A stretch of 64,000 nt of DNA, taken from a virus. Positions 30,677 to 63,941 of the stretch are shown here, piece after piece. The first letter of the stretch is position 1. Each line of letters opens with the position of its first letter. The stretch spans positions 124,001-188,000 of the IMG/VR virus record IMGVR_UViG_3300044700_000691, one strand, 5' to 3'. The translations under genes were made by a program, and so were the position numbers. Under the pieces are notes generated by a model. It had not been told where the DNA came from, did not search any database, and was given only the letters and a program-made list of their open reading frames with translations.

Positions 30677-32266
30677 CTAAGCAACATACTCACCAGTTAA
30701 GTGTTTAACACCCGTTGCATTAGCACCGTCAACAATATTAAATTGTACGTACTGAGTTTGTGGATGCCATCCAGCTTCAACTAGAGCATATCTTGACTTC
30801 ATTCCGATTTTCGGAGAGAATGTACCCTCTGAAATAGTTTGAAGAGATTCAGCCATGATGTAAGGCATGAATTTAAGTCCTGGCTCTTCGTCAGCACCTT
30901 TACGTCCGATAAGAACAGTGTTGTTATCAAAACGTAAGTTTGGATCAACATAGATAGTTAAACCGTGAACTTTACCAGCAGGGTAAAGAGTTCCAGCAGT
31001 AGAACCTAAATCATTGTTGAATGGAGCGATTGAATAACCAGCAGCATCAGCCATAGCAGATGCAACTTTAGCAGAAACTACTGCGAAAGTACCAGCTCCG
31101 AAACGAGCTCTGTGATAAATTAAGTTAGCAGATTCAAGAATCTTAGTAACTAATTTTCTTTGAGAAGTCGTTACGTTTTCAAAAGTACCAGAACCTGGTT
31201 GAACGTTAACGTTAGCAACATAACCTTCAGTTGCGTTAGCAAGTGTAGCATTAGTTGTAGCTAAGTTTTTAACTTTAGAAACGATTTCTTTGTTGATTGT
31301 TTGAGCAAGCTCATTAACAGCAACGTTCTCCAACATAGAGATTGCATCGAAATTCCAAACTCTGTTAAGATCTTGGATTTGTTCAACAGTTGCAGAGATA
31401 GAAACTTGAGAAGTTTTAGCCTCAACGAACTTAGTAAACATTTTAAGACCCATTTGACGGAATTTAGAACCTTCACCAGCTGCTCTATCCATAGATTGAG
31501 TATACTCATTTCCAGAAAGGAAAGGACCAGAGAAATCTGTGTGAGCTTCAGTTGAAGTCGAAGTGAATCCAGAGATGTGGTTTTCTAAAGCAGATACTAA
31601 ATCAACTTTGTTAGCCGCATCTAAAGTTACACTGTTTAACACTTTACCAGCACCTAAGTAAGTAGCTAAAGTGATAGAATCATCAGAAGTAACTACTTTG
31701 AAGATCAATTGACCGTCAATACGTGAAGCACCTACGAATTGTAGTGTAAGTACTGCAGCTGTTCCAGCTCCATCACCATCAACTGTGTACTCAGTACCAG
31801 CTGTGAATGTAGCCTTTTCACCTGTAGTGAAATCAGCGATTTTGATCAAATATGGTTCGAATTCAGTACCTAAGTTACCACCTTGGTAAACATAATCTAG
31901 GTAAGGAAGGAAACCAACTGGAGAGTCCATAGGAACTACACCAACTAGGTCGAAACCAATTGTTTTTGCTGCTACTTGAATAGCAACTGGCAATAAACTT
32001 GGGAATTTATCACCTGAACCGTTTGCACCTGTTGTAGGAGCTAATGGGTTACCGATTCCACTGATAGAACCTGGTTGTTGATAGAATAAGCCTGGAGCAA
32101 CTGTAGCTTCATTGATTGAACCTGCGTTTTCGAACATTGCGTGATAGTGGCAATAATCTACTAACCAAGGACGTGAATCTGCGTTTACACCATAGCTTTC
32201 TAAAACTGGAGCCCAAGTTGACTTAATCGAAGAATCGTTTAGTCTTTTAAATACTTTTGTAGACAT
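30677..32266 (-). CDS. 23: Major capsid protein, gp23-like
   Basis: A 529-residue HK97-fold capsid protein; T4 gp23 has 521. N-terminal residues 1-53 look like a propeptide ending in the prohead protease consensus I-N-E|A (residues 51-54). T4-like signatures include FDLVGVVPMDSPVGFLPYLDYVY and the C-terminal region GRKGADEEPGLKFMPYIMAESLQTIS. After cleavage the mature N-terminus would begin with a Gly/Pro-rich arm (residues 54-90) that is also found at the end of the 537-residue protein at 44413. It lies 17 bases after the protease-scaffold gene and ends at a strong terminator. The phage GroES probably assists its folding. Confidence 0.93.
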   Translation of the reverse strand: MSTKVFKRLNDSSIKSTWAPVLESYGVNADSRPWLVDYCHYHAMFENAGSINEATVAPGLFYQQPGSISGIGNPLAPTTGANGSGDKFPSLLPVAIQVAAKTIGFDLVGVVPMDSPVGFLPYLDYVYQGGNLGTEFEPYLIKIADFTTGEKATFTAGTEYTVDGDGAGTAAVLTLQFVGASRIDGQLIFKVVTSDDSITLATYLGAGKVLNSVTLDAANKVDLVSALENHISGFTSTSTEAHTDFSGPFLSGNEYTQSMDRAAGEGSKFRQMGLKMFTKFVEAKTSQVSISATVEQIQDLNRVWNFDAISMLENVAVNELAQTINKEIVSKVKNLATTNATLANATEGYVANVNVQPGSGTFENVTTSQRKLVTKILESANLIYHRARFGAGTFAVVSAKVASAMADAAGYSIAPFNNDLGSTAGTLYPAGKVHGLTIYVDPNLRFDNNTVLIGRKGADEEPGLKFMPYIMAESLQTISEGTFSPKIGMKSRYALVEAGWHPQTQYVQFNIVDGANATGVKHLTGEYVA

Positions 32267-32283: not shown

Positions 32284-33630
32284 TTAGTTTTGTGCTCTTC
32301 TTTTTAGAGCGTCGAGGTATGTGTTACCATAGCCTCTTTGATGTTCCGCAACTTTCTCAATCGAGATAAAACCTTCTCTACCTTGGCTTTCGTTGATGTG
32401 TTGCGCATTTTTATTTTGTTTTTCGAAATAAATTCTTTCATTAATTCCTCTTAGATCTCTGCTCTCCCAGAAGTTTTTAACTTGGTAAGGAGTGTTAAGA
32501 ACAGTTAGGGAAGCTTGTGCTTCTAAGCGGCTCTTTTCTGCAGGGGTCATGCTTTCAAAAATATCTTTGAATTTAGTAGGCATGAATTTGATTAAGGTAG
32601 GAACGTTTTCTTGTTGTTTGTTAAGAACTGACTCAATAATTTGGATAACGTCTTCTTCTTTAAAATAAACTGCTCCAGAAAGAGCTTCTATAATAGCAGT
32701 TTTTTGTGTTTGATCTAAATTAAAGAATCTTGATTTATTATCTTCGTTAAGAAGTTTTAGGAATGGATATCTGCTTTCTAATACAGATTTAGCTGAGTTA
32801 TCTTTAATATGCTTAACAATTGCATTTACTGAACCAACTATATCGTTAACTTTAGAACCTTCAGCAACTTGGTAGTTTACTGATTCGTCTAATTTTTCGA
32901 TTTGGCTAAATGCAGAGGCAGATTTGGTAGAAAGACCAGATTTACCGTCATTTAGTGATTCTGCAATATACTCAGAATATTTAATTCCTTTTTCAAGGTT
33001 TTCAGCAAGATAATTAGCGTAACCAACTGAGTGCTTTAAGTTTTCAGCAACGTATTCAGTGTATCTGATACCTTGTTCTGATTTTTCAGCAACATACTCA
33101 GTGTATTGAATTCCTTTATCAAGGTTTTCTGCTAAGTATTCTGTGTACTTAATATTTTTGTTTACGTTTTCTGCGATATGCTCAGAGTAATCAATTGCAT
33201 TATTTAAGTTTTCGCCAACGTATTCAGAGTAACCGATACCTTGTTCAACTTTTTCAGCAAGATAATCCGAGTAATCGATTACCTTATTAACTTTCTCAGC
33301 AACATGCTCAGAATAGTCAATTGATTTGTTTAACATGCCAGAAAGGTAATTGTTATATTCAATTACTTTGCCAAGCTCGCTTGAAAGATAGTTAACGTAC
33401 TCAACTAATTGGTTATTAGTTGCAGGTGTGTTTTCTTCTTCAGCATTTAGATCTGTAACCAAATTCGGATCTTCATCTGTTTGGTCTTCTTCGGTAACTG
33501 CGAAGTTATCAACCATTTTATCTACACTCTCCTTAAGAGAATCAAACTTGCCTTTAACAAGTTCAGAATATTGGTTGAACGCTTCTTTCGTTACAAACTC
33601 ATTAGTCATGTGTTTGTTATTATTTTCCAT
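32284..33630 (-). CDS. 22: Possible nested scaffold-only product (internal start)
   Basis: An in-frame ATG (Met229 of the fusion) is preceded 19 bases upstream by ATAAATAAT, the late-promoter motif at the spacing used by other late genes. It would yield a 448-residue scaffold with all eleven repeats but no protease, like lambda C/Nu3, giving the excess of scaffold over protease that assembly needs. This is inference from sequence only; the motif might be chance because it also encodes residues of the fusion. Confidence 0.4.
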   Translation of the reverse strand: MENNNKHMTNEFVTKEAFNQYSELVKGKFDSLKESVDKMVDNFAVTEEDQTDEDPNLVTDLNAEEENTPATNNQLVEYVNYLSSELGKVIEYNNYLSGMLNKSIDYSEHVAEKVNKVIDYSDYLAEKVEQGIGYSEYVGENLNNAIDYSEHIAENVNKNIKYTEYLAENLDKGIQYTEYVAEKSEQGIRYTEYVAENLKHSVGYANYLAENLEKGIKYSEYIAESLNDGKSGLSTKSASAFSQIEKLDESVNYQVAEGSKVNDIVGSVNAIVKHIKDNSAKSVLESRYPFLKLLNEDNKSRFFNLDQTQKTAIIEALSGAVYFKEEDVIQIIESVLNKQQENVPTLIKFMPTKFKDIFESMTPAEKSRLEAQASLTVLNTPYQVKNFWESRDLRGINERIYFEKQNKNAQHINESQGREGFISIEKVAEHQRGYGNTYLDALKRRAQN

Positions 33631-34314
33631 AGGTTTTACTATCTCTTCATTATTTATCTTATAAACTTTGATCGATTCTGCGAGGTTTAAGCTTTCAGAA
33701 ATATCTACCAATTTGTTTATAATTGAGCTTGATTTAATATTATCCAAAGATTCGAAAAGCATAGAATAATTGCTTTGGAAACTTTCGTTAACTGATCTTC
33801 TAAGAACTGCTTCGCTAAAACCAGGCTCAGCGACTAAGTCGTATGTGAATATTCTTTGGATTTTTACTTTACCCTCATTTGCTACTTGACCAGCAGCTCT
33901 TGAAGAGGTTGAAATTGTACAGCCTGACTCAACTAGAGTTTTTGCAATCTGACCAGCCGGTGTATTTAGCAGACGTACTTTAATTTTTACGTTATTAGAA
34001 TCTTGATCGTACCATAATTTCTCAATTACGTGAGAAACATTCTTAAGTGAAACATCAAAATTTTGTGGATGATCTAACTCACCAAATAGTTGACCCTTTT
34101 CGATTTTCTCGTTTAGGTATTCTAGGTGTGGAAGATACTCAGCTTTTTCGTAGATTCGGTTGTTGTTATTCTTTGTGTCAAATACTGCACAAACCCCTTC
34201 CATAACAATGTCACCATTCTCTGACTTAACTGTGTTTAGACCTTCATTTACTCTTTCAATAATGAAGAGCATATCTGAGGTATTTGTAATTTCGTTTACG
34301 TCTGTAAGGACCAC
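32284..34314 (-). CDS. 21: Prohead protease-scaffold fusion (gp21-gp22-like) with 14-residue repeats
   Basis: A 676-residue fusion, GTG start. Residues 1-175 are a gp21-type prohead serine protease: GELDHP with catalytic His82, and the CTISTSSRA serine region (about 135-138). T4 gp21 is 212 residues. After a likely self-cleavage site (SVNE|S, about 177) comes a helical scaffold. Residues 303-456 contain eleven uninterrupted 14-residue repeats with core [IV]xY[ST]EY[VLI]AE[NK]. Fourteen residues equal two heptads, so a coiled coil is likely. The repeat core matches the head-targeting tags on many other proteins in this genome. The C-terminal 220 residues are helical and gp22-like. A late promoter lies 20 bases upstream, and the capsid gene follows. 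Confidence 0.88.
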   Translation of the reverse strand: MVLTDVNEITNTSDMLFIIERVNEGLNTVKSENGDIVMEGVCAVFDTKNNNNRIYEKAEYLPHLEYLNEKIEKGQLFGELDHPQNFDVSLKNVSHVIEKLWYDQDSNNVKIKVRLLNTPAGQIAKTLVESGCTISTSSRAAGQVANEGKVKIQRIFTYDLVAEPGFSEAVLRRSVNESFQSNYSMLFESLDNIKSSSIINKLVDISESLNLAESIKVYKINNEEIVKPMENNNKHMTNEFVTKEAFNQYSELVKGKFDSLKESVDKMVDNFAVTEEDQTDEDPNLVTDLNAEEENTPATNNQLVEYVNYLSSELGKVIEYNNYLSGMLNKSIDYSEHVAEKVNKVIDYSDYLAEKVEQGIGYSEYVGENLNNAIDYSEHIAENVNKNIKYTEYLAENLDKGIQYTEYVAEKSEQGIRYTEYVAENLKHSVGYANYLAENLEKGIKYSEYIAESLNDGKSGLSTKSASAFSQIEKLDESVNYQVAEGSKVNDIVGSVNAIVKHIKDNSAKSVLESRYPFLKLLNEDNKSRFFNLDQTQKTAIIEALSGAVYFKEEDVIQIIESVLNKQQENVPTLIKFMPTKFKDIFESMTPAEKSRLEAQASLTVLNTPYQVKNFWESRDLRGINERIYFEKQNKNAQHINESQGREGFISIEKVAEHQRGYGNTYLDALKRRAQN
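32947..33408 (-). repeat. Eleven tandem 42-bp repeats in scaffold coding region
   Basis: Residues 303-456 of the protease-scaffold fusion read as eleven 14-residue units in perfect register. Examples are SIDYSEHVAEKVNK, NIKYTEYLAENLDK and GIQYTEYVAEKSEQ. The first two units are the most diverged. Confidence 0.95.
33649..33657 (-). promoter_or_regulatory. Possible internal late promoter for scaffold-only product
   Basis: ATAAATAAT on the minus strand inside the protease-scaffold gene, 19 bases before the in-frame ATG at 33630. Confidence 0.35.
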
Positions 34315-44412: not shown

Positions 44413-46026
44413 TTACTTTTTATTTAAATTTTTATAAAAGCTAGTAAAGTCTAAAATATTTCTATTAGCTTTTTTAGATTTCTTTGGTTGAAAATTATCA
44501 CCAGAACCTGGTGAAGTTTGAGTTGGCGCAATTGGATTACCCATGCCGCCGATACTTGCTGGTGTTTGCATTGCTACACCTGGTGATGCAACATCCTCTT
44601 TAACTTGACCGGATCCAACTTTAGTTGCTCCTTTAATTTTACTTTGTGGTGCATCTAGTCCGCTTTCTGCACTTGTAAATAAGAAGCGTGTCCACTTTTC
44701 AGCTTTTAATTGAGCCTCTTTACCACCAGTCACCTTGGCAGTTCTTGAAATGGTTCTTCCAATAATAGGTAAAGTTGCTTGTCTAAATCTTGCGAGTTGA
44801 GCTCCAAGATTCTTTTGCTCTTCTCCTTGATATTCGACAGTTGCCGATAGCGTACCAAGATAGGTTCCAATCTTTAGTAGATAATTAATTCGGCTGGAGT
44901 CTAACATTTGTTTAGACGTAATTGCAATTTTAGTTCTTTCAAATAGAGGAAGCTTAATTTCTGGAGAATAGGCAACTCCCTTATAACGACTTATGTCAAG
45001 GTCAGTTTTATATTTTCCAAGACGAGTCCTTGCCTCTAAGTATGCCTCAATTGCCTCAACCATATATTGTTTCTTGGCCGAATCGTCGAGAGTCTGTAAC
45101 ATAGTTCGACGTTTTGTAATAGCATCAATTTCGCCTCGCTCATCCGTCATAATCATAATACGAACTTTTACAAATTGAGACTCTAATGTATTTAGGTCTG
45201 GCCAATTTCTAAGTTCTTCGATTGCATTTCTAATAATAACGTCACGTTTAACTAATTTCTCAGCCTTACCGCCAGTTCGCTTATTAAAATCCTCTGACGA
45301 TTTCTTGAAGTCGTCAACATCATTATCCATTTCCGTTTGAACTTCTTCCCATTCAACATCAATAATATCTGGTTCAGGCTTCTTTTTATCCTCATCTTTA
45401 TTTGAAAAGTCTGAAATAATATAGGCTACCTTTACCGAGTCTTCTGCTGTTTTTCTAAAGTCTTCAGAATCTGCAGTCGTACCATCCATTTTTTCCTTGG
45501 CAGAGCTAACTAATGTTTTAGTAACCTCAGCTTCAGTTTTCTTTTGATCAGTAAATGAAATTTTAATTTTATCAAGCAGGTCATTAACCTCGGCTGTCCA
45601 ATTGCTCTCCTCAATGGTTTGATATGCTTCCCATACAATAGCCATTCGACCTTTGTATGCTCGTATTCTCTCTAACTGTAATTCAATGTCTTCGCCATCT
45701 TTAATCATTTGATCAAGAACTTCGGTTTCAATTTTTAAAGTTTGAGAAATAAAATCAATATACTTATTTAAAATATCAATCCATTCTTTATTAAGAAAAG
45801 CTTGGCTTAATTGCTGAAGAACCTGAGGATCAGTCTTTGCCTTATTTAAAATATCATTTTCGATAAGTCTTGATAAAAACTCATCGACCTTCTTCATGAT
45901 ATCCTCCTCCTTTTTATTGGAGCCTTTGGCAAATGTGATAATATCAGAAATTTCATTTCCAATAATAATTAATTCAGATTCTAATAGAAGCTGTTCGAGG
46001 ATATGTATGTGTTTAAATTTCAGCAT
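44413..46026 (-). CDS. Head-region protein sharing a capsid-protein arm motif
   Basis: A 537-residue, mainly helical protein. Residues 481-514 (VASPGVAMQTPASIGGMGNP and the following IAPTQTSPGSGDNF) align with residues 56-88 of the major capsid protein, the arm just after its cleavage site. The C-terminus (NILDFTSFYKNLNKK) also resembles the head-targeting tag, here at the end of the chain. Residues 1-200 contain coiled-coil-like stretches. It may sit on the inner capsid surface using the same contacts as the gp23 arm. No enzymatic motif is recognised. Confidence 0.6.
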   Translation of the reverse strand: MLKFKHIHILEQLLLESELIIIGNEISDIITFAKGSNKKEEDIMKKVDEFLSRLIENDILNKAKTDPQVLQQLSQAFLNKEWIDILNKYIDFISQTLKIETEVLDQMIKDGEDIELQLERIRAYKGRMAIVWEAYQTIEESNWTAEVNDLLDKIKISFTDQKKTEAEVTKTLVSSAKEKMDGTTADSEDFRKTAEDSVKVAYIISDFSNKDEDKKKPEPDIIDVEWEEVQTEMDNDVDDFKKSSEDFNKRTGGKAEKLVKRDVIIRNAIEELRNWPDLNTLESQFVKVRIMIMTDERGEIDAITKRRTMLQTLDDSAKKQYMVEAIEAYLEARTRLGKYKTDLDISRYKGVAYSPEIKLPLFERTKIAITSKQMLDSSRINYLLKIGTYLGTLSATVEYQGEEQKNLGAQLARFRQATLPIIGRTISRTAKVTGGKEAQLKAEKWTRFLFTSAESGLDAPQSKIKGATKVGSGQVKEDVASPGVAMQTPASIGGMGNPIAPTQTSPGSGDNFQPKKSKKANRNILDFTSFYKNLNKK

Positions 46027-46445
46027 TAGTCTAGGGTTAATCTGTATGCAAGTTTATTCTTTAATGATAAAAACTCGTCTCTTACATTGTATAATTCAGT
46101 GTTTGTTTCTTGATCAAATATTTCACAAAAATCTTGTTGAAATACTCTTTCGATATTTTGAATAAAAATTGGCATTGCTTGATCGTAGTCCATAACTAGA
46201 ATTGCGCAGCCTCCAACTTTAAATCTGCCAAATTTACCAATGATCTGTTCAGCAATTTCATCAACTAATCCTAAGAAATCATCATAAAATGCACCAAATG
46301 CATTGTGTTGAGCTTCGTTTGTAGTTTGCCAATGTAAAATATGAGCCTGGTCTCTAATTTGCAGTAGACTTAACATAAATGTAGATACATCCATGGCATC
46401 AGTCTGTGGCTCGTCTAACCCGCTTTGTAATTCAAATGGAATCAT
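46026..46445 (-). CDS. Ferritin/Dps-like helical protein
   Basis: The ATG at 46445 overlaps the stop of the upstream small gene (ATGA); a TTG at 46469 is the alternative. The 139 residues include IRDQAHILHWQTTNEAQHNA and FYDDFLGLVDEIAEQIIGK, reminiscent of ferritin-like or Dps-like di-metal helices found in a small phage protein family. His and Asp/Glu positions would fit metal binding. Dps proteins protect DNA from oxidation, but activity here is only inferred. Confidence 0.6.
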   Translation of the reverse strand: MIPFELQSGLDEPQTDAMDVSTFMLSLLQIRDQAHILHWQTTNEAQHNAFGAFYDDFLGLVDEIAEQIIGKFGRFKVGGCAILVMDYDQAMPIFIQNIERVFQQDFCEIFDQETNTELYNVRDEFLSLKNKLAYRLTLD

Positions 46446-46621
46446 TTCTTTGTAGTATGTTTTTTCCAATCGGCGAATGGTTTAATCCAAAAGGTCCGAT
46501 TAGTTTCCTTTTGTAAAAGATCCATAATCTTATTGTCTCCACTTGGATGCTGCATAACTGCATTTTCCAATCTGGCTTTACCCTGAAGATAAGCTTTGTA
46601 GTTTTTCTGAGAAGAATTCAC
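46442..46621 (-). CDS. Small basic protein, 59 residues, unknown
   Basis: A GTG at 46621 opens a 59-codon frame whose TGA overlaps the ferritin-like gene ATG. A late-promoter motif TATTTATTA (minus strand TAATAAATA) lies 20 bases upstream, the usual spacing. The product is basic with NYKAYLQGKARLEN and TFWIKPFADWKKHTTKK. It fills an otherwise empty gap of about 190 bases. Confidence 0.55.
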   Translation of the reverse strand: MNSSQKNYKAYLQGKARLENAVMQHPSGDNKIMDLLQKETNRTFWIKPFADWKKHTTKK

Positions 46622-46663: not shown

Positions 46664-49558
46664 TTATTCTTGAGGAGCAGTTGAGAATGAATCCATGTTA
46701 AGATCTATTCCCAATAGAGAGTCAGATGAAGTAGATTTAGGTCTAATATTATTAGCCTGTTCAATCTTAAAGTATTTAAGCTGATCATCTGTAATCTTTC
46801 CGTTAATTAAAACATAGTCTCCTGTGTGTTTACTAACTGCCATAAAATATGTGCCGTCCTGTAAATATCGATCAAACTCAATCTTTAATACTCCATTTAA
46901 ATAGACACCAGTATTAAATGTACCGTCTTCTGCGATTGCACCGTTAAATACAGCAGTCAACTCATCTTTGTAGTTCTTATAGATTAGGTTGAATCCGGCT
47001 GCTAAAATTTCAACAACCTCTTCTTTAGTTGAAGCTTGAACAGCAGCTGTAATTCCTTGGCTAAAATATTCTTTTCTTGGAGTAGCAGAAGCTGATGGTG
47101 TAAATGCCGTAGAGTTTTCAAAATACTCTGGCACTTCCTGTTTAGCTGCAGTAAATAGATCGGCTAAACCTTTTCTAATATAGTTTCCAGTATCTGCTCC
47201 CATACCAGTACCGCTTTGTCCAGTTAATCTAAAATTATCTCCGCTTGATTTAATTTCAATTAAATCTGTCTTAATTTTAATATCGCCCTTATCTCTATTT
47301 CCAGCGTTTACCGCATCCTTAATTAAGATTGACATTAAAATTTCGCCGCGACCAATGTTTACATTACCAACTGACCCAATTAAATTAAAAAGCTGATCAT
47401 ATAGTGCTGGGCTAAGACCTGTCGTATCAAATAAGGTTTTTAGATTGCCGTTTGGGCTATTTGTAATATCTTCAAATGTAATAGTTGGATTATCTAAATA
47501 CACCAATAGGTCATCGTCTTGATCAAGATCGTCCGCAATTGAAACAATGGTTTTTGCTAAATCTTTATAGCCTTTACCTGTGCCGAGAATATCAAATAAC
47601 TCTTTATTTACGTCGTTATGGGTTCTCTTTAATAGTTTTTCAATCTTTTTATAGAGAGCCTCATTATATGGTGCATCAATAATTAAATCAAGCAGGTCAC
47701 TTTTCTTTTTATCAAGCTCTGCAACTGAAATCGACTCAGTTAAAAGGGATTCTTCAATCTCCTTTGTCATATTATAAAACTCTGAGTGTAGAGGCTTACT
47801 GGTTATGTTTTTATACAAAACAAAATCTTGGTTTTTAACTGAATTAACAAGCTCTGCTTCTAGTTCAATTTTAGGTACTTCTACTACCTTTAACTGAGAT
47901 GGAATTTTTGCGTATGGAGCTCTCTTATTAATACGATTTAGGTCAATTACTAAATCTGGCACAAACTCTAAGTTGGTTGCAATTGCTTTAATTGAATAAC
48001 CTTGGCCAATTGCACCAATTAATTCATCTATTCCAACTGAATCTACAGTTGAACCGCCTACTACATAATCTGAAGTTTTTGATAATCGGTCAATTGAATT
48101 TTTGACTGTTTCCGAAGACATTGGAAAAGCTGAACTTCTTTGTCCAGGGTGATACGCTACCATTAAACAAGGAACATCATACTTTCCTTTAATATTAGCT
48201 GCGATTTTTTCGTGTTCTTTACTTAGAGGTTGAAATTTATCTAGGTAAATAACGATTTCAATATCTTTTTTTTTAGTTTGATTTGCTTGAAATTGACTAA
48301 AAAAATCTGAGGCATCCTCATCTGTACCAAAAAATTGATTAAATGTTGGAAAAAATGCCTCGTTTAATTTATCCTCTGCTGCAAGTTGAACTTTAGCAAT
48401 TTGGGATTTTAGAGTTTCTTTCATAGTTTTATTAAAAAAGGTTGAGCTAACTCTAATATTTTTCTTTCTAAATGTATTTAAGAAAACTCTGTACAATTCC
48501 TTAAGAGTTTTATCTGAATCGATTAATCTAATTACCATATCATCATTGATCAAGACACGATTAACATCAAACTCCGGCTTATTTAGGAATTCTGGAGTTG
48601 TTATTTCAAGACCGCGATATTTGCTACCGTGCTCCTGTATAAAATCTTTAAATATTGCATTTATAATTTGAATATAACGTCTTTCAAATGTTGTACCATC
48701 TGGCTTAATTGCATCAAGGTCTGCTTGTGAATAGGTTTCAATAAAATTCATTAAGTCAGCTGTCATAATCCAAATGTAATCATCAGTCTTTGGTGCAGCT
48801 ACTCTGTCTTGTGCCTTTTCCTTTGCTCTTGCTTGGAAAACCGGGTCAACTAATTTTGCTAAAAATACTGAATCTTCTCCGCCTGGTTCATAGAATCTAA
48901 AAACAATACCTTCGATATCTTTGTCAGCGGTGTCTCTTAAAAAAGAGGTTCTAAGTTCAGGATTAAGAACATTAATAATGTATTTGGTAAAAGATGCAGT
49001 TTTAAATTTTCCAACTAACTCATCAAGCGGAGTATAGACAAAATCTAAAATTTTCTCTTTTTGATCATCTGTTAGTTTTCCTTGAAAAATAATTGGTGGG
49101 CGCTCGATATCTAAAATATCCGCCCATTTGTCTAATTCTGCCTTATCTTGGATAGTCTCAGCCTGTTCGCCAGCTTTATCCAATATATGAATATAACTTA
49201 GGATCAAGTGGTTTTTAGGTAATCTATCGTATTGTATTGATTGAGCAGTCGGTGAACTAAAATACTCCATTCCAAAATGATAGTTACATGGAAGTTTTTC
49301 AATTGAGTCAGCCGATAATTCATCGAAGTGTTTAAGTGCAGGGTTATAGTATGAACTTAGGACACGATCTACACCTGTTAATTTAGTATTACGTTTAAAA
49401 AATTCAAATGGTTCTTCGGAATTTCCACAATTTCTTTGTGCACCAAAAAATGCACCGTCCATTTTTTCGTTAACAATAACTTCTTTATTAAGAAGAGCCT
49501 CTAAAAATTCTTTGCCCTTTTTTTCGTAAATGTCCTTTAAGTGGTTTAGTCCTGCCAT
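46664..49558 (-). CDS. Fusion: KxDG-type ligase, nucleotidyltransferase-like and nuclease-like domains
   Basis: 964 residues. Domain 1 (1-250) has nucleotidyltransferase/ligase motifs: motif I EKMDGAFFG (Lys32), FGMEYF, motif IV EGIVFRF (216-221), and motif V-like FLAKLVDP. Domain 2 (about 432-560) resembles HxGH nucleotidylyltransferases (IYLDKFQPLSKEHEK, then SSETVKNSI) but the HxGH is degraded. Domain 3 (about 655-930) has GRGEILMSIL, then GDI (758-760) and EIKSS (768-772), a PD-(D/E)xK-like layout. LNE400|A and FNQFFGTDEDAS between domains 1 and 2 resemble the tag and cleavage site. An RNA-repair or NAD-linked role is inferred. Confidence 0.65.
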   Translation of the reverse strand: MAGLNHLKDIYEKKGKEFLEALLNKEVIVNEKMDGAFFGAQRNCGNSEEPFEFFKRNTKLTGVDRVLSSYYNPALKHFDELSADSIEKLPCNYHFGMEYFSSPTAQSIQYDRLPKNHLILSYIHILDKAGEQAETIQDKAELDKWADILDIERPPIIFQGKLTDDQKEKILDFVYTPLDELVGKFKTASFTKYIINVLNPELRTSFLRDTADKDIEGIVFRFYEPGGEDSVFLAKLVDPVFQARAKEKAQDRVAAPKTDDYIWIMTADLMNFIETYSQADLDAIKPDGTTFERRYIQIINAIFKDFIQEHGSKYRGLEITTPEFLNKPEFDVNRVLINDDMVIRLIDSDKTLKELYRVFLNTFRKKNIRVSSTFFNKTMKETLKSQIAKVQLAAEDKLNEAFFPTFNQFFGTDEDASDFFSQFQANQTKKKDIEIVIYLDKFQPLSKEHEKIAANIKGKYDVPCLMVAYHPGQRSSAFPMSSETVKNSIDRLSKTSDYVVGGSTVDSVGIDELIGAIGQGYSIKAIATNLEFVPDLVIDLNRINKRAPYAKIPSQLKVVEVPKIELEAELVNSVKNQDFVLYKNITSKPLHSEFYNMTKEIEESLLTESISVAELDKKKSDLLDLIIDAPYNEALYKKIEKLLKRTHNDVNKELFDILGTGKGYKDLAKTIVSIADDLDQDDDLLVYLDNPTITFEDITNSPNGNLKTLFDTTGLSPALYDQLFNLIGSVGNVNIGRGEILMSILIKDAVNAGNRDKGDIKIKTDLIEIKSSGDNFRLTGQSGTGMGADTGNYIRKGLADLFTAAKQEVPEYFENSTAFTPSASATPRKEYFSQGITAAVQASTKEEVVEILAAGFNLIYKNYKDELTAVFNGAIAEDGTFNTGVYLNGVLKIEFDRYLQDGTYFMAVSKHTGDYVLINGKITDDQLKYFKIEQANNIRPKSTSSDSLLGIDLNMDSFSTAPQE

Positions 49559-49573
49559 AAATTTAAATTAGTA

Positions 49574-50074
49574 TTAGTCCAAAGATCCGTATTTTCCTGC
49601 TCCCATATCCTTTGCAAAATCTTTGCCAGCCTTTGAAGAAACGCTAAGGCTAATGCCTTTTAGTAAACCAGCATCCTCTGGGTTCTCTTCAAAATAGGTA
49701 ATTAAGCTAGCTAGGTTAACATTTTGATATGGTTGAATTGTTCCTTCTGGTAGTTTTTTTTCTAATTCTCTACCAGATGAATAGTCTTTCCAGTTAAGAT
49801 TCCAACAATAAAATCTAACTTCTTCTTTCATTTTTGTTGTATAGTAACGGTCAACATCTGCAAGTCTGGCTTGAACTTCAGAAAGATCAGTTTTATATGA
49901 AGTCGAGTGGCCATAGATATCAGCTGGTGTTCCAATGCTTAAACTATCTGATGTAATATCAGTCAATTTAACTAGTTGGTCCATAAGTTCCTGAAATGGT
50001 AATCCTTTAAGTGCCTCAGATTCTTCTGCTTCGTTTAGGAACTGCTTAAAGTTTCCAATAGTGCGTTTTGTCAT
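49574..50074 (-). CDS. Tagged putative head protein
   Basis: A 166-residue protein that begins IGNFKQFLNEAEE, a strong tag with predicted cleavage after LNE. The mature part is helical and acidic (FQELMDQLVKLTDITSDSLS) with a middle beta region (EVRFYCWNLNWKDY). A late promoter lies 21 bases upstream. The gene sits between the kinase-like and ligase-fusion genes. Function is unknown. Confidence 0.6.
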   Translation of the reverse strand: MTKRTIGNFKQFLNEAEESEALKGLPFQELMDQLVKLTDITSDSLSIGTPADIYGHSTSYKTDLSEVQARLADVDRYYTTKMKEEVRFYCWNLNWKDYSSGRELEKKLPEGTIQPYQNVNLASLITYFEENPEDAGLLKGISLSVSSKAGKDFAKDMGAGKYGSLD

Positions 50075-50094
50075 TTTATAGTTGCCTATTTCTG

Positions 50095-50104
50095 ATTATT
50101 TATC
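50095..50104 (-). promoter_or_regulatory. Putative late promoter for tagged protein
   Basis: GATAAATAAT on the minus strand, 21 bases before the tagged gene start, overlapping the end of the kinase-like gene. Confidence 0.55.
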
Positions 50105-50695
50105 CCGAACTAATCTTTGGATTAACTCGCAAAACTCATCAACTGAGTCTTGACTAAAATTATTTGTAAAATGGTCAAAGGAATTACCTTCACGAGCATC
50201 TTTAAATCTAAATGGCGCATCTTCAATCAATTTTAGCATAAGTCGCTTTTCTTCTTTTGCTGAAACTAATCCATCCCATAGGTCTTTTTTGCGAGCCTGA
50301 TCCTGTTTAAATTCATCTGGTGCATCAATCATAATAGTTTTGCAGTTTTGGTAGCCCGGTCTTTTAATTAAGCCATATAGCTCAGATTGAGCTTGACTAA
50401 ATTCCAAGCGATTCCAAATGGTTGCCCAAGTAGCTGCGGTAATATGAGCTCTATCAAATACAAAAATCTTATCGGGAAAATGCTCATGTAGATCAAGTAT
50501 TGTCATAATATTACCCATACTAAAATAGTGAATACCAGAATCAGATTTATCCCATTCTTTAACTATTGCTGAATATTCATCAGCTAGGTAAAATTTATAA
50601 TAAAATAGATTTAATTCATCACCGTGTAGCTTAACCAGTTGATTAAGTAAATGGGTTTTGCCTGAGTGACGGGTACCTTCAATAAAAATTATCAT
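50096..50695 (-). CDS. P-loop nucleoside/polynucleotide kinase-like protein
   Basis: A 199-residue P-loop protein with Walker A GTRHSGKT (residues 7-14) and a DR-containing Walker B-like strand IFVFDRAHITAATWA. The layout fits a thymidylate-kinase or polynucleotide-kinase type fold. It overlaps the HAD gene by four bases. In T4, kinase and HAD phosphatase are one RNA-repair protein (Pnkp). The adjacent separate kinase and HAD genes suggest a similar pair, but substrate is not shown by the sequence. Confidence 0.65.
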   Translation of the reverse strand: MIIFIEGTRHSGKTHLLNQLVKLHGDELNLFYYKFYLADEYSAIVKEWDKSDSGIHYFSMGNIMTILDLHEHFPDKIFVFDRAHITAATWATIWNRLEFSQAQSELYGLIKRPGYQNCKTIMIDAPDEFKQDQARKKDLWDGLVSAKEEKRLMLKLIEDAPFRFKDAREGNSFDHFTNNFSQDSVDEFCELIQRLVRDK

Positions 50696-51222
50696 GAGTA
50701 TTTAAGTTGTATTCTTTCTCTTGATAATATACCAATATTTCCATTAATTTGGAGCAATTCGGTCTTATCAACAAACCAATATTCAATTGATTTTGTAATC
50801 TTACTTAGGTATGGATCTTTAGTGTATTTGTCTATTTGAACTAGAGAATCTTCAAATATTCGGATTTTATCAAAAGACGGCCCGACTGTATCTAAATATT
50901 CAAGTAGCATTTGCGGCTTATCTGTATTACGCTCGCATAGAATAATTTGGTTAAATGTTTTGGTAATTCCAAAATTATCTAAAACTGCCTCCATTGCCTT
51001 TCTGGTTGCAGCTACCCGGTGGCTTAGAATTATTGTAGTGTGATCCTTATCCAGTTTGTTAAAAACCGACTCGATTAGTTGCAATCTATATAGATTGGTA
51101 TTTAGGGATTTTGGATTATCGAACCACTCATATGGTTTTTTGAACTCTGTACCAGCATGGGTAAATGGGGGAACCCTAAATAAGGTTTCATCAAAATCTA
51201 CGACGTTTAAAACTTTCTCCAT
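50692..51222 (-). CDS. HAD-superfamily phosphatase-like protein
   Basis: The ATG at 51222 gives 176 residues; an upstream in-frame extension to 51363 would overlap the divergent gene. HAD motif I is DFDETLF (Asp9, Asp11), motif II is ILSHR, and FEDS near residue 130 is motif IV-like. RVPPF...WF resembles HAD proteins linked to RNA repair. It is the first gene of a minus-strand cluster with the kinase and ligase fusion. A 3'-phosphatase role in RNA repair is an inference. Confidence 0.7.
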   Translation of the reverse strand: MEKVLNVVDFDETLFRVPPFTHAGTEFKKPYEWFDNPKSLNTNLYRLQLIESVFNKLDKDHTTIILSHRVAATRKAMEAVLDNFGITKTFNQIILCERNTDKPQMLLEYLDTVGPSFDKIRIFEDSLVQIDKYTKDPYLSKITKSIEYWFVDKTELLQINGNIGILSRERIQLKYS

Positions 51223-51225
51223 ATG

Positions 51226-51234
51226 AAATAAATA
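51226..51234 (+). promoter_or_regulatory. Putative late promoter in divergent region
   Basis: AAATAAATA on the plus strand, ending 26 bases before the TTG start at 51260, in the short gap between divergent genes. Confidence 0.4.
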
Positions 51235-51259
51235 ACTTTGAAATAATATTATACTAAAA

Positions 51260-62596: not shown

Positions 62597-62605
62597 GTTA
62601 TTTAT
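62597..62605 (-). promoter_or_regulatory. Putative late promoter
   Basis: ATAAATAAC on the minus strand, 19 bases before the tagged small gene, overlapping the stop of the upstream fusion gene. Confidence 0.55.
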
Positions 62606-63941
62606 CGGAAATATAGTCCGAAAAAGTTTTTATACGGGTTGTGCCAGAACCAGGATTTGCTCCAAGTTCTTGACGACTTGCTTTATATGAACCCCATTGA
62701 GATGGTACGCGAATAGTTCCGGAAACTCGTTGTGGATTTCTTTCCGGTTGCAGGTCATCCATATCTGGATTGCTTTTCGTGCGGTCTCTGAATAACTCTG
62801 GTGTTAGCAGGTCCTCTTCAATCTTTCCACCTAATATCATCCATACCTTTTTAGGGTCCTTTCCTTCAGGGATCCCCTGTGAAAAGCTATCAAAGTCTTG
62901 TGCTAACCAAAACTCTCTCATTAGAGTGCCAGATACGCCATCTTCATCTCCGTCTGCACCAGAGTTTCCTCCAAATTCAGGGCGTTCAGTTTCTATTCTA
63001 TTAATTTTAGAAATTGAGCCTTGCCATTTTTCCATAGCAGCCCATCTGGGCATATCCTCATCTGTAGCATAAAGATTAACTACCGTATTTGGTGCATATT
63101 GTGTTTGGCCAAGAGCTTCAACAAATTCATATCCACTTCTGACTGGAGTAACGTTTGATAGGTGCAATTCAACATTATCAAAGTCTTCTAAATAGTAATC
63201 TAATACATCCATTGCAGATTTGCCGCTAATTCCAGCCATTTCTGTCTTGGAAATAAACACATGTACCTCGTCGTTTTCTTCTGCAATTTTTGCAATTGCA
63301 TCATAGTGACCGGCATGTGGTGGTTTAAATTTACCACTAAATATTCCGACGGTTTTAATATTTAATTTTGGAACTTGAGTACGACCAATTTTTCTGGTCT
63401 TCATTGTAATTTCTGCAAACTCAGTCTCTAGACTCTTTGCAAGTGCTAGGTTTTTGCGATCATCATCATAAAAAGTAAAATGAGTAAAGCCTTTTGCCAT
63501 TAGTTTACGAAAGGCTTCTTTTTTCTTTTCTGCAATAGTGCCGTCGAATCCAAATTCTGGATCACTTACTGCATAAATTAGGTTGGGGTGAATATCTATA
63601 CCGTGGGATAATAGAAATTCTCTGACTAGTTTCTTATTATCTCTAGCTGTAATAATCCCGACAGCAGTCCCGGATTCGTATGCAGAACGTAATATGTTAA
63701 GTACCCATTCAACTAATCTTCCAGCCTTTAAAATATTAGCATCATTGAATTGGGTATAGTTAACCTCATGATGAGGTTCCTTTTCATAATCGTTAAACTC
63801 CTGTGGAGTAAGATCAAATTTCTCGCCAGTCAAGGCATCCTTAACAAGGATCTTTGCATTGGTAACAACTAGCGTGTCATCCAAATCAAATACGATAATT
63901 GAATTGTCTCTAGAAAATGCCATTTCGTTTACTGTTTGCAC
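62598..63941 (-). CDS. HAD phosphatase-nucleotidylyltransferase fusion
   Basis: 447 residues from GTG at 63941; an ATG at 63923 is the alternative. Domain 1 (1-190) is a HAD hydrolase with DLDDT (Asp19, Asp21), TAR (98-100) and FYDDDRKN (157-164). Domain 2 (195-345) is a nucleotidylyltransferase of the NMNAT/cytidylyltransferase type with GKFKPPHAGH (HxGH at 209-212) and SGTLMR (337-342). The C-terminus TRIKTFSDYISDK resembles the head tag. It may act in NAD metabolism or RNA end repair; the substrate is not evident. The gene's own late promoter is at 63959. Confidence 0.75.
   Translation of the reverse strand: MQTVNEMAFSRDNSIIVFDLDDTLVVTNAKILVKDALTGEKFDLTPQEFNDYEKEPHHEVNYTQFNDANILKAGRLVEWVLNILRSAYESGTAVGIITARDNKKLVREFLLSHGIDIHPNLIYAVSDPEFGFDGTIAEKKKEAFRKLMAKGFTHFTFYDDDRKNLALAKSLETEFAEITMKTRKIGRTQVPKLNIKTVGIFSGKFKPPHAGHYDAIAKIAEENDEVHVFISKTEMAGISGKSAMDVLDYYLEDFDNVELHLSNVTPVRSGYEFVEALGQTQYAPNTVVNLYATDEDMPRWAAMEKWQGSISKINRIETERPEFGGNSGADGDEDGVSGTLMREFWLAQDFDSFSQGIPEGKDPKKVWMILGGKIEEDLLTPELFRDRTKSNPDMDDLQPERNPQRVSGTIRVPSQWGSYKASRQELGANPGSGTTRIKTFSDYISDK

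Follow-up and report, generated by a model that had tools for sequence, protein, structure and literature searches.

Enzymes delivered from phage heads are already known, in T4 Alt and probably in the virion proteins that resemble nicotinamide mononucleotide adenylyltransferase (NMNAT). According to one source (PMC9026906), T4 internal proteins (IPI-III, Alt) combine a head-targeting motif with an L/I-X-E site of the prohead protease, and many of them are ejected; targeting of IPIII depends on residues 4 and 7 and its processing on residues 8 and 10, and the protease gp21 cleaves after L/I-X-E. NMNAT-like or cytidylyltransferase proteins are reported from the virion proteomes of cyanophages S-SM1 (PMC3037559) and S-CREM2 (PMC10665884, whose authors caution that carry-over is possible), and an NMNAT-like protein was found in virions of Synechococcus phage S-SCSM1 by mass spectrometry (PMC9602691). 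Here, a fusion protein of 964 amino acids (aa) with an RNA ligase domain and an NMNAT-like domain was analysed together with its neighbours. It is encoded in a window of 64,000 nucleotides (nt), positions 124001-188000 of a 216,815-base virus record (IMGVR_UViG_3300044700_000691; G000:C1). On the minus strand the order of transcription is HAD protein, P-loop kinase, 166-aa protein, fusion (Table 1). Judged by sequence features, the chances are about even that the fusion is a late, head-targeted protein that is cleaved by the head protease and ejected into the host. The gene set, earlier taken as one cluster in a reading made from the sequence alone (the sequence-only reading), appears better split in two, a pair formed by the HAD and thymidylate-kinase-like proteins and a putative late unit in which the tagged small protein precedes the fusion.

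Relatives were collected by tblastn, which matched six records of very large uncultured phages, and by an IMG/VR scan with the fusion alignment. Five of the six phage records were analysed; the sixth had coordinates and scores identical to one of these. The IMG/VR scan returned 311 relatives, 80 of which were kept. Together with the five phage-record loci this gave 85 proteins, 65 of them distinct and one identical to the window protein. Near-identical and truncated proteins were excluded from alignments A2 (49 rows) and A5 (44 rows) and reinstated for a 65-row recount, which includes locus L047 with Val at ligase motif I. Gene neighbourhoods were counted in 41 representatives at 85% identity. 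In a 49-row tree, clade A (30 rows, including the window) and clade B (14 rows) were both starred and stood apart from the phage-record rows. Long branches were flagged by the tree program (L014, L017 and others), so the positions of the phage-record rows are unsure.

The ligase motifs EKMDG and EGIVFRF, pointed out in the sequence-only reading, were borne out. Pfam RNA_ligase (PF09414) matched residues 25-235 (E 2.8e-7, 31.3 bits, cut-off 27), and the window protein carries EKMDG at 31-35 (K32), E98, EGIVFRF at 216-222 (E216) and the motif V lysine K235. An AlphaFold model of the whole fusion (mean pLDDT, the predicted local distance difference test score, 64.4; predicted template modelling score 0.42) was confident at residues 1-250, 259-394 and 431-600, disordered at 397-430 and mostly poor at 605-964. 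The top Foldseek matches of the model in the PDB were T4 RNA ligase 2 (Rnl2; 2hvr, E 2.4e-7, and 1s68, E 4.7e-5), followed by other RNA ligases and then adenylyltransferases of the NadD/CoaD type. Structure prediction and profile searches thus agreed with the ligase and nucleotidyltransferase folds that had been named. VIA-align with the whole fusion model returned the nucleotidyltransferase part alone and was uninformative on the ligase part. Lys32 was kept in 58/65 distinct proteins, so its presumed conservation mostly held (58/60 among IMG/VR proteins); it was absent from L047, L054 and all five phage-record relatives analysed (L014-L018). The motif V lysine was kept in 61/65 distinct proteins, and the motif I aspartate was substituted in 8/30 clade-A rows. 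By model and motifs, the window protein is assigned an Rnl2-type ligase fold with motifs I, III, IV and V present, and RNA repair would be its most natural activity. It differs from T4 Rnl2, with which it shares 13% identity in the fold alignment, in that a cleavage-like linker joins it to an NMNAT-like domain. A database protein of an uncultured Caudovirales phage (A0A6J5NWC5, 623 aa) very probably belongs to the same fusion family (Foldseek E 1.6e-54, 36% identity over 641 columns). Its name, 'Cytidyltransferase-like domain-containing protein', reflects the nucleotidyltransferase only, and it is too short to include the C-terminal region.

The site LNE/A between the domains (a slash marks the putative cut), which had been taken to raise the idea of packaging, is real and conserved. 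The pattern [LIV]xE[ASGN] was present at Glu400 in 44/44 aligned IMG/VR and window rows, the sole position at which it aligned throughout. Only three such sites occur in the 964-aa chain (400, 603 and 608), and each of them falls at one of its two domain junctions. Among distinct proteins the 400 site was present in 58/65, comprising 58/60 from IMG/VR and 0/5 phage-record relatives; the two IMG/VR proteins that miss it end earlier (the L027 frame stops at residue 344, and L066 ends at 392 with its contig). E400 and F406 were invariant in the 44 rows, and F406 in 49/49. Beside the cut site lies an F-x-x-F motif, FPTFNQF in the window and FP[ST]Fxx[FY] through clade A. A strict tag with the spacing of T4 internal proteins, [FY]xx[FYW][ILVMF]xE, was sought in the first 50 residues of predicted proteins and was found in 16/16 members of the 166-aa family; over all clustered open reading frames (ORFs) it occurred in 51/624, versus 1.8% of internal stretches.

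An ATAAATA element, which we take to resemble the T4 late promoter TATAAATA, marks the junction between kinase and ligase unit. The exact TATAAATA was rejected as a signal, being rarer than chance in the window (3 versus 9.5 expected). The form ATAAATAA occurred 15 times, and eight copies lay 12-25 nt before a correctly oriented ORF start, including those of the head protease, the tail sheath and the 166-aa protein. When 27 permutations of the same composition were scored likewise (5-40 nt), 78/516 lay near a start; the highest were TTAAAAAA (8/29), ATAATAAA (6/22) and AATAAATA (6/11), the last of which overlaps the motif itself. Across clade-A representatives, ATAAATA preceded the first gene after the kinase in 25/25 and the kinase in 0/25. 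Of the late promoter of the sequence-only reading, a putative form was recovered as ATAAATA at this junction in clade A; the exact T4 sequence was not borne out, and most clade-B representatives lack the element (see below). Another sequence, TTATTTAT, is conserved before the HAD gene and was considered as its promoter. It was not used for the HAD operon because its opposite strand reads ATAAATAA toward a divergent 153-aa gene. That copy lies at 51228-51235 on the plus strand, 25 nt before the 153-aa gene, and ATAAATA precedes this gene at the same place in 22/24 clade-A loci.

A T4-type head maturation protease and a major head protein, the latter with a matching cleavage-like site (SINE/A), are encoded in the same window, with the tail sheath (phrog_34521, 2.7e-90) on the same strand. 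The protease part is followed by nine 14-residue repeats of the YSEYVAE type (mean of shuffled chains 0.138, largest 2), whose spacing equals that of the capsid-targeting motif; they might form a scaffold to which tags bind through like-with-like contacts. With the conserved interdomain site, F-x-x-F and ATAAATA, this makes packaging, raised only in passing before, the best-supported part of the sequence-only reading. The NMNAT-like virion protein of S-SCSM1 (ORF91) starts with MKSFLQFLKEA, and its nucleotidyltransferase is related to that of the fusion (hhalign E 1.1e-5, probability 82; BLASTP to L084 only E 0.003). Two genes further along in S-SCSM1, gp93, which is labelled as a virion protein, has a homologue in clade B that lies downstream of the fusion (E 4e-8, with only the L087 member compared). 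The two systems thus have in common the nucleotidyltransferase domain, a capsid-targeting-like tag and, for clade B, a homologous downstream gene. ORF91 differs in that it lacks a ligase domain, its tag is N-terminal and its HxGH site reads TVGH, where the window protein has SKEH.

From these elements the following course is proposed. The fusion and the tagged 166-aa protein would be transcribed from a putative late promoter of T4 type, located where the kinase gene ends. The capsid-targeting-like F-x-x-F motif of the linker would draw the fusion into the prohead core, and the T4-type head protease would cut after Glu400 and near Glu608, which would release three pieces: the Rnl2-type ligase, the NMNAT-like domain and the nuclease-like tail. 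By analogy with cyanophage virion NMNATs and T4 internal proteins, the pieces would be ejected with the DNA. In the host, the ligase may seal nicks in nucleic acid before phage genes are expressed, with tRNA cleaved by a host defence as the likeliest substrate; this last step is the weakest. For the HAD and thymidylate-kinase-like proteins, a separate role as an unpackaged pair in nucleotide metabolism is probable.

Several observations weigh against this proposal. The pattern [LIV]xE[ASGN] is short, and composition alone predicts one in about 19% of 50-aa stretches; the 44 rows are related, so that 44/44 measures conservation and not 44 independent events. The five phage-record relatives lack both this site and Lys32. 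In T4 internal proteins the propeptide tag is N-terminal, whereas the F-x-x-F of the fusion is internal and C-terminal to a putative cut site between two enzyme domains; in the ligase-fusion cluster the strict tag occurs in the first 50 residues of 0/41. The tag was also found in 4/26 kinases, which are assumed not to be packaged (HAD 0/25). In one stretch of S-SCSM1, with two cut genes and a tRNA left out, an N-terminal tag (first letter F, Y, W or L) was found in 1/15 virion-labelled and 3/53 other proteins, and thus does not mark virion proteins in general. ATAAATA precedes the fusion in only 2/11 clade-B representatives, and in the eight clade-A representatives without the tagged gene it overlaps the kinase end and lies just 6-9 nt before the start codon. 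For RNA repair as the role of the fusion, the evidence consists of fold and motif.

The predicted degraded HxGH-type nucleotidyltransferase was recovered as an NMNAT fold. Residues 434-605 were placed on NMNAT 1f9a by VIA-align (Z 15.5, root-mean-square deviation (rmsd) 2.6, 151 aligned), and a profile of 49 homologues matched 1f9a also by sequence (1e-4). The window domain itself was not recognised by any nucleotidyltransferase model of Pfam or NCBIfam; it is identified by its fold and through its alignment with relatives that such models do recognise. Its HxGH site reads SKEH and the position of the C-terminal Ser/Thr-Arg motif reads PKIELEAELVNSVKN, neither conforming. The first His of HxGH was kept in 32/59 distinct proteins having the domain. 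Clade B has an intact GRFQPFHxGH and the Ser/Thr-Arg second motif in 14/14 rows, so the window protein is read as a degraded relative; in clade A, HxGH was kept in 12/30 rows and the second-motif Arg in 1/30 (by eye). Phage-record rows L015-L018 have no such domain. Taken together, the aligned sequences indicate that the ligase site is kept where the nucleotidyltransferase erodes, and that the most distant relatives have lost the ligase lysine.

For the C-terminal region, the GDI...EIKSS stretch of the sequence-only reading was confirmed as GDI...IEIK, a motif whose D, E and K were invariant in six aligned sequences. The nuclease identity is weakly supported. Most of the region modelled at pLDDT <50, which leaves the label 'nuclease' unproven, and it gave no Pfam match and no tblastn match in phages. 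An IMG/VR scan with this region found 12 loci only, each at 75% identity or above. A more far-reaching form of the proposal, in which the fusion is a virion polyprotein cut in the maturing head into ligase, NMNAT-like enzyme and, in this lineage, nuclease-like protein, all injected as a preloaded counter to RNA-cleaving defence, is held only tentatively and judged rather doubtful. If the pieces were injected with the genome, sealing would be available at once, before the ligase of the tRNA cluster described below can be made.

The separate P-loop kinase and HAD protein near the 964-residue chain were confirmed as ORFs with invariant catalytic residues. The kinase lies upstream of the fusion in 25/25 clade-A representatives and the HAD gene in 24/25, so the arrangement is beyond chance; the 166-aa gene is present in 15/25. 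HAD residues D8, D10, T12, K101 and D124 were invariant in 22 aligned sequences. Pfam matches of the HAD protein were only below cut-off, and its profile found nothing convincing in the PDB (best match E 0.13, an unrelated protein). Kinase residues G12, K13, D81 and R82 (P-loop, DR motif) were invariant in 23 aligned sequences. The kinase profile matched deoxynucleoside kinases (6ybh, 1.9e-5), and its model (pLDDT 86.5) was aligned over the whole length to thymidylate kinase 2v54 (VIA-align Z 17.1, rmsd 3.1, 181 aligned, 12% identity); the polynucleotide-kinase type AAA_33 was not found in the Pfam scan. By this positive evidence from profile and model the kinase is classed as a relative of thymidylate/deoxynucleoside kinases, from which it differs in being encoded beside a HAD protein.

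The sequence-only reading had compared the set to T4 Pnkp plus RNA ligase. As an intracellular RNA-repair set, HAD phosphatase and kinase would heal ends and the ligase would seal them, as T4 Pnkp and RnlA do, and nothing would be packaged. HAD and kinase do both precede the ligase in 24/25 clade-A representatives with their catalytic residues invariant, the HAD protein weakly matches phrog_415 'polynucleotide kinase' (E 0.0028), and the PNK and HAD enzymes of jumbo phages are generally associated with ATP-grasp RNA ligases (PMC7824862). The kinase nevertheless groups with deoxynucleoside and thymidylate kinases; a promoter-like element separates it from the ligase; HAD and kinase occupy two ORFs, unlike single-chain T4 Pnkp; and neither cluster was found within 1.6 kb upstream of the fusion in clades B and C (0/16). 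The record also holds another RNA ligase (phrog_968, 3.6e-54) with an adjacent kinase among six tRNA genes at 201.8-216.6 kb, about 36 kb away; this kinase best matches phrog_2071 'ATPase' (6.4e-42) and then phrog_505 'polynucleotide kinase' (9.9e-8). The Pnkp parallel is weak on these grounds, lowered above all by the kinase fold and the separate ligase-kinase pair, and an RNA-repair set of this kind is considered unlikely.

The alternative in which HAD and kinase supply a mononucleotide for the NMNAT-like domain to turn into NAD, so countering NAD-depleting defence, with the ligase as adenylation partner, would draw on the NMNAT fold and the intact GRFQPFHxGH of clade B. It would also draw on a weak whole-length match of the kinase to AAA_28 (E 0.014, under cut-off), presumably the family of the NadR kinase. 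The S-SCSM1 authors suggest that NMNAT carried in the virion influences the NAD level of the host (PMC9602691). Set against this, clade A, which has HAD and kinase, has mostly eroded nucleotidyltransferase motifs, clade B, with the intact domain, has neither gene upstream, and nicotinate phosphoribosyltransferase was not found in the 216,815-base record, itself possibly a fragment. The NAD-restoring set suggested earlier therefore lacks support and is regarded as very improbable. A purely structural or scaffolding role, with the two folds as head-core building blocks and catalysis vestigial, would explain why the protein persists where Lys32 is lost (L047, L054 and the five phage-record relatives), why motif I and the clade-A nucleotidyltransferase motifs vary, and why L015-L018 do without that domain. 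With Lys32 in all but two of the 60 distinct IMG/VR proteins and the motif V lysine in nearly all of the full set, such a role seems quite improbable.

Other genes were noted around these units. After the fusion, at 46026-46469 (minus strand), lies a small protein matching phrog_858 'starvation-inducible transcriptional regulator' (1.1e-13) and DUF5856, whose cluster is present again in part of clade A. Kinase, HAD and 166-aa protein were found upstream in none of the clade-B representatives or the five phage-record loci. A different protein, c22, lies upstream of the fusion in 11/11 clade-B representatives (L084 7047-7976 and ten other loci), at a distance of 11-457 nt. It carries a loose F-x-x-F tag with spacing looser than the strict pattern (strict 0/11), an invariant E-G-G resembling a cut site and, as read by eye, GS...GDxD in the manner of Polbeta, and has relatives in Lak megaphages and Agrobacterium phage Atu_ph07. 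An assignment of c22 as Polbeta-like was dropped, since the motif was read by eye only, the PDB gave nothing up to E 1 and Pfam lent no support.

Further along the window, a minus-strand chain at 62598-63941 combines a HAD domain (phrog_415, 6e-10) with a HIGH nucleotidyltransferase (phrog_3041, 1.1e-11) that has motifs GKFKPPHAGH and SGTLMR (Pfam CTP_transf_like 20.6 bits, just below the cut-off of 21). The end of this chain, KTFSDYISDK, resembles a tag, and ATAAATAA lies 17 nt upstream of its ORF. Beyond the window, at G000:C1:195292-195729, a match to phrog_415 contains three in-frame stops, so that the gene is broken or frameshifted or its reading frame is interrupted. In L114 (G000 200000-216815), the tRNA-cluster RNA ligase carries a PHA02142 OB-fold domain, and several short ORFs begin with tag-like sequences (by eye).

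Table 1. Positions of the analysed features in the window and the basis of each assignment.
Feature	Position	Strand	Basis
Major head protein, SINE/A at residue 53 (counted by hand)	30677..32266	-	phrog_138 E 1.2e-48
Head maturation protease, T4-type, tandem YSEYVAE-type repeats	32284..34314	-	phrog_207 E 3.5e-35
964-aa fusion: ligase, helical domain, linker, NMNAT-like domain, C-terminal nuclease-like region	46664..49558	-	ORF, Pfam, structure model, Foldseek, VIA-align
C-terminal region, residues 610-964, GxGE...GDI...IEIK, PD-(D/E)XK-like by motif only	46667..47731	-	alignment
Second junction, residues 601-609, IEE/S and LTE/S sites	47732..47758	-	pattern scan
NMNAT-fold domain, residues 432-605, degraded catalytic motif FQPLSKEH	47744..48265	-	VIA-align, motifs
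Flexible linker, residues 395-431, with KLNE/A and FPTFNQF	48266..48376	-	pLDDT <50 at 397-430
Cleavage-like site LNE/A, residues 398-401 (Glu400)	48356-48367	-	alignment
Helical domain, residues 259-394	48377..48784	-	structure model; aligned in all clades
Rnl2-type ligase domain, residues 1-250; Lys32 codon 49463-49465	48809..49558	-	PF09414, T4 Rnl2 fold match, motifs
166-aa protein, N-terminal capsid-targeting-like tag FKQFLNE/A	49574..50074	-	strict tag in 16/16 cluster members
ATAAATAA, T4-late-promoter-like, overlaps kinase gene end, 22 nt before 166-aa ORF	50096..50103	-	motif scan
Thymidylate/deoxynucleoside-kinase-fold P-loop kinase, 199 aa	50096..50695	-	profile and structure model
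HAD-family protein, 175 aa from ATG (mechanical ORF extends to 51363)	50692..51219	-	conserved catalytic residues

In the literature searched, no RNA ligase delivered from a phage head, no ligase/NMNAT-like fusion of this kind and no head protease separating two enzymes of one chain was described. If the fusion is indeed packaged, cleaved and ejected, RNA repair could begin ahead of phage gene expression, and the view of timing for anticodon nucleases and similar defences would have to be revised. The combination of F-x-x-F, [LIV]xE/[ASG] and ATAAATA may then serve as a readable signal by which candidates for injection are picked out among the proteins of large phages that only metagenomes have revealed.

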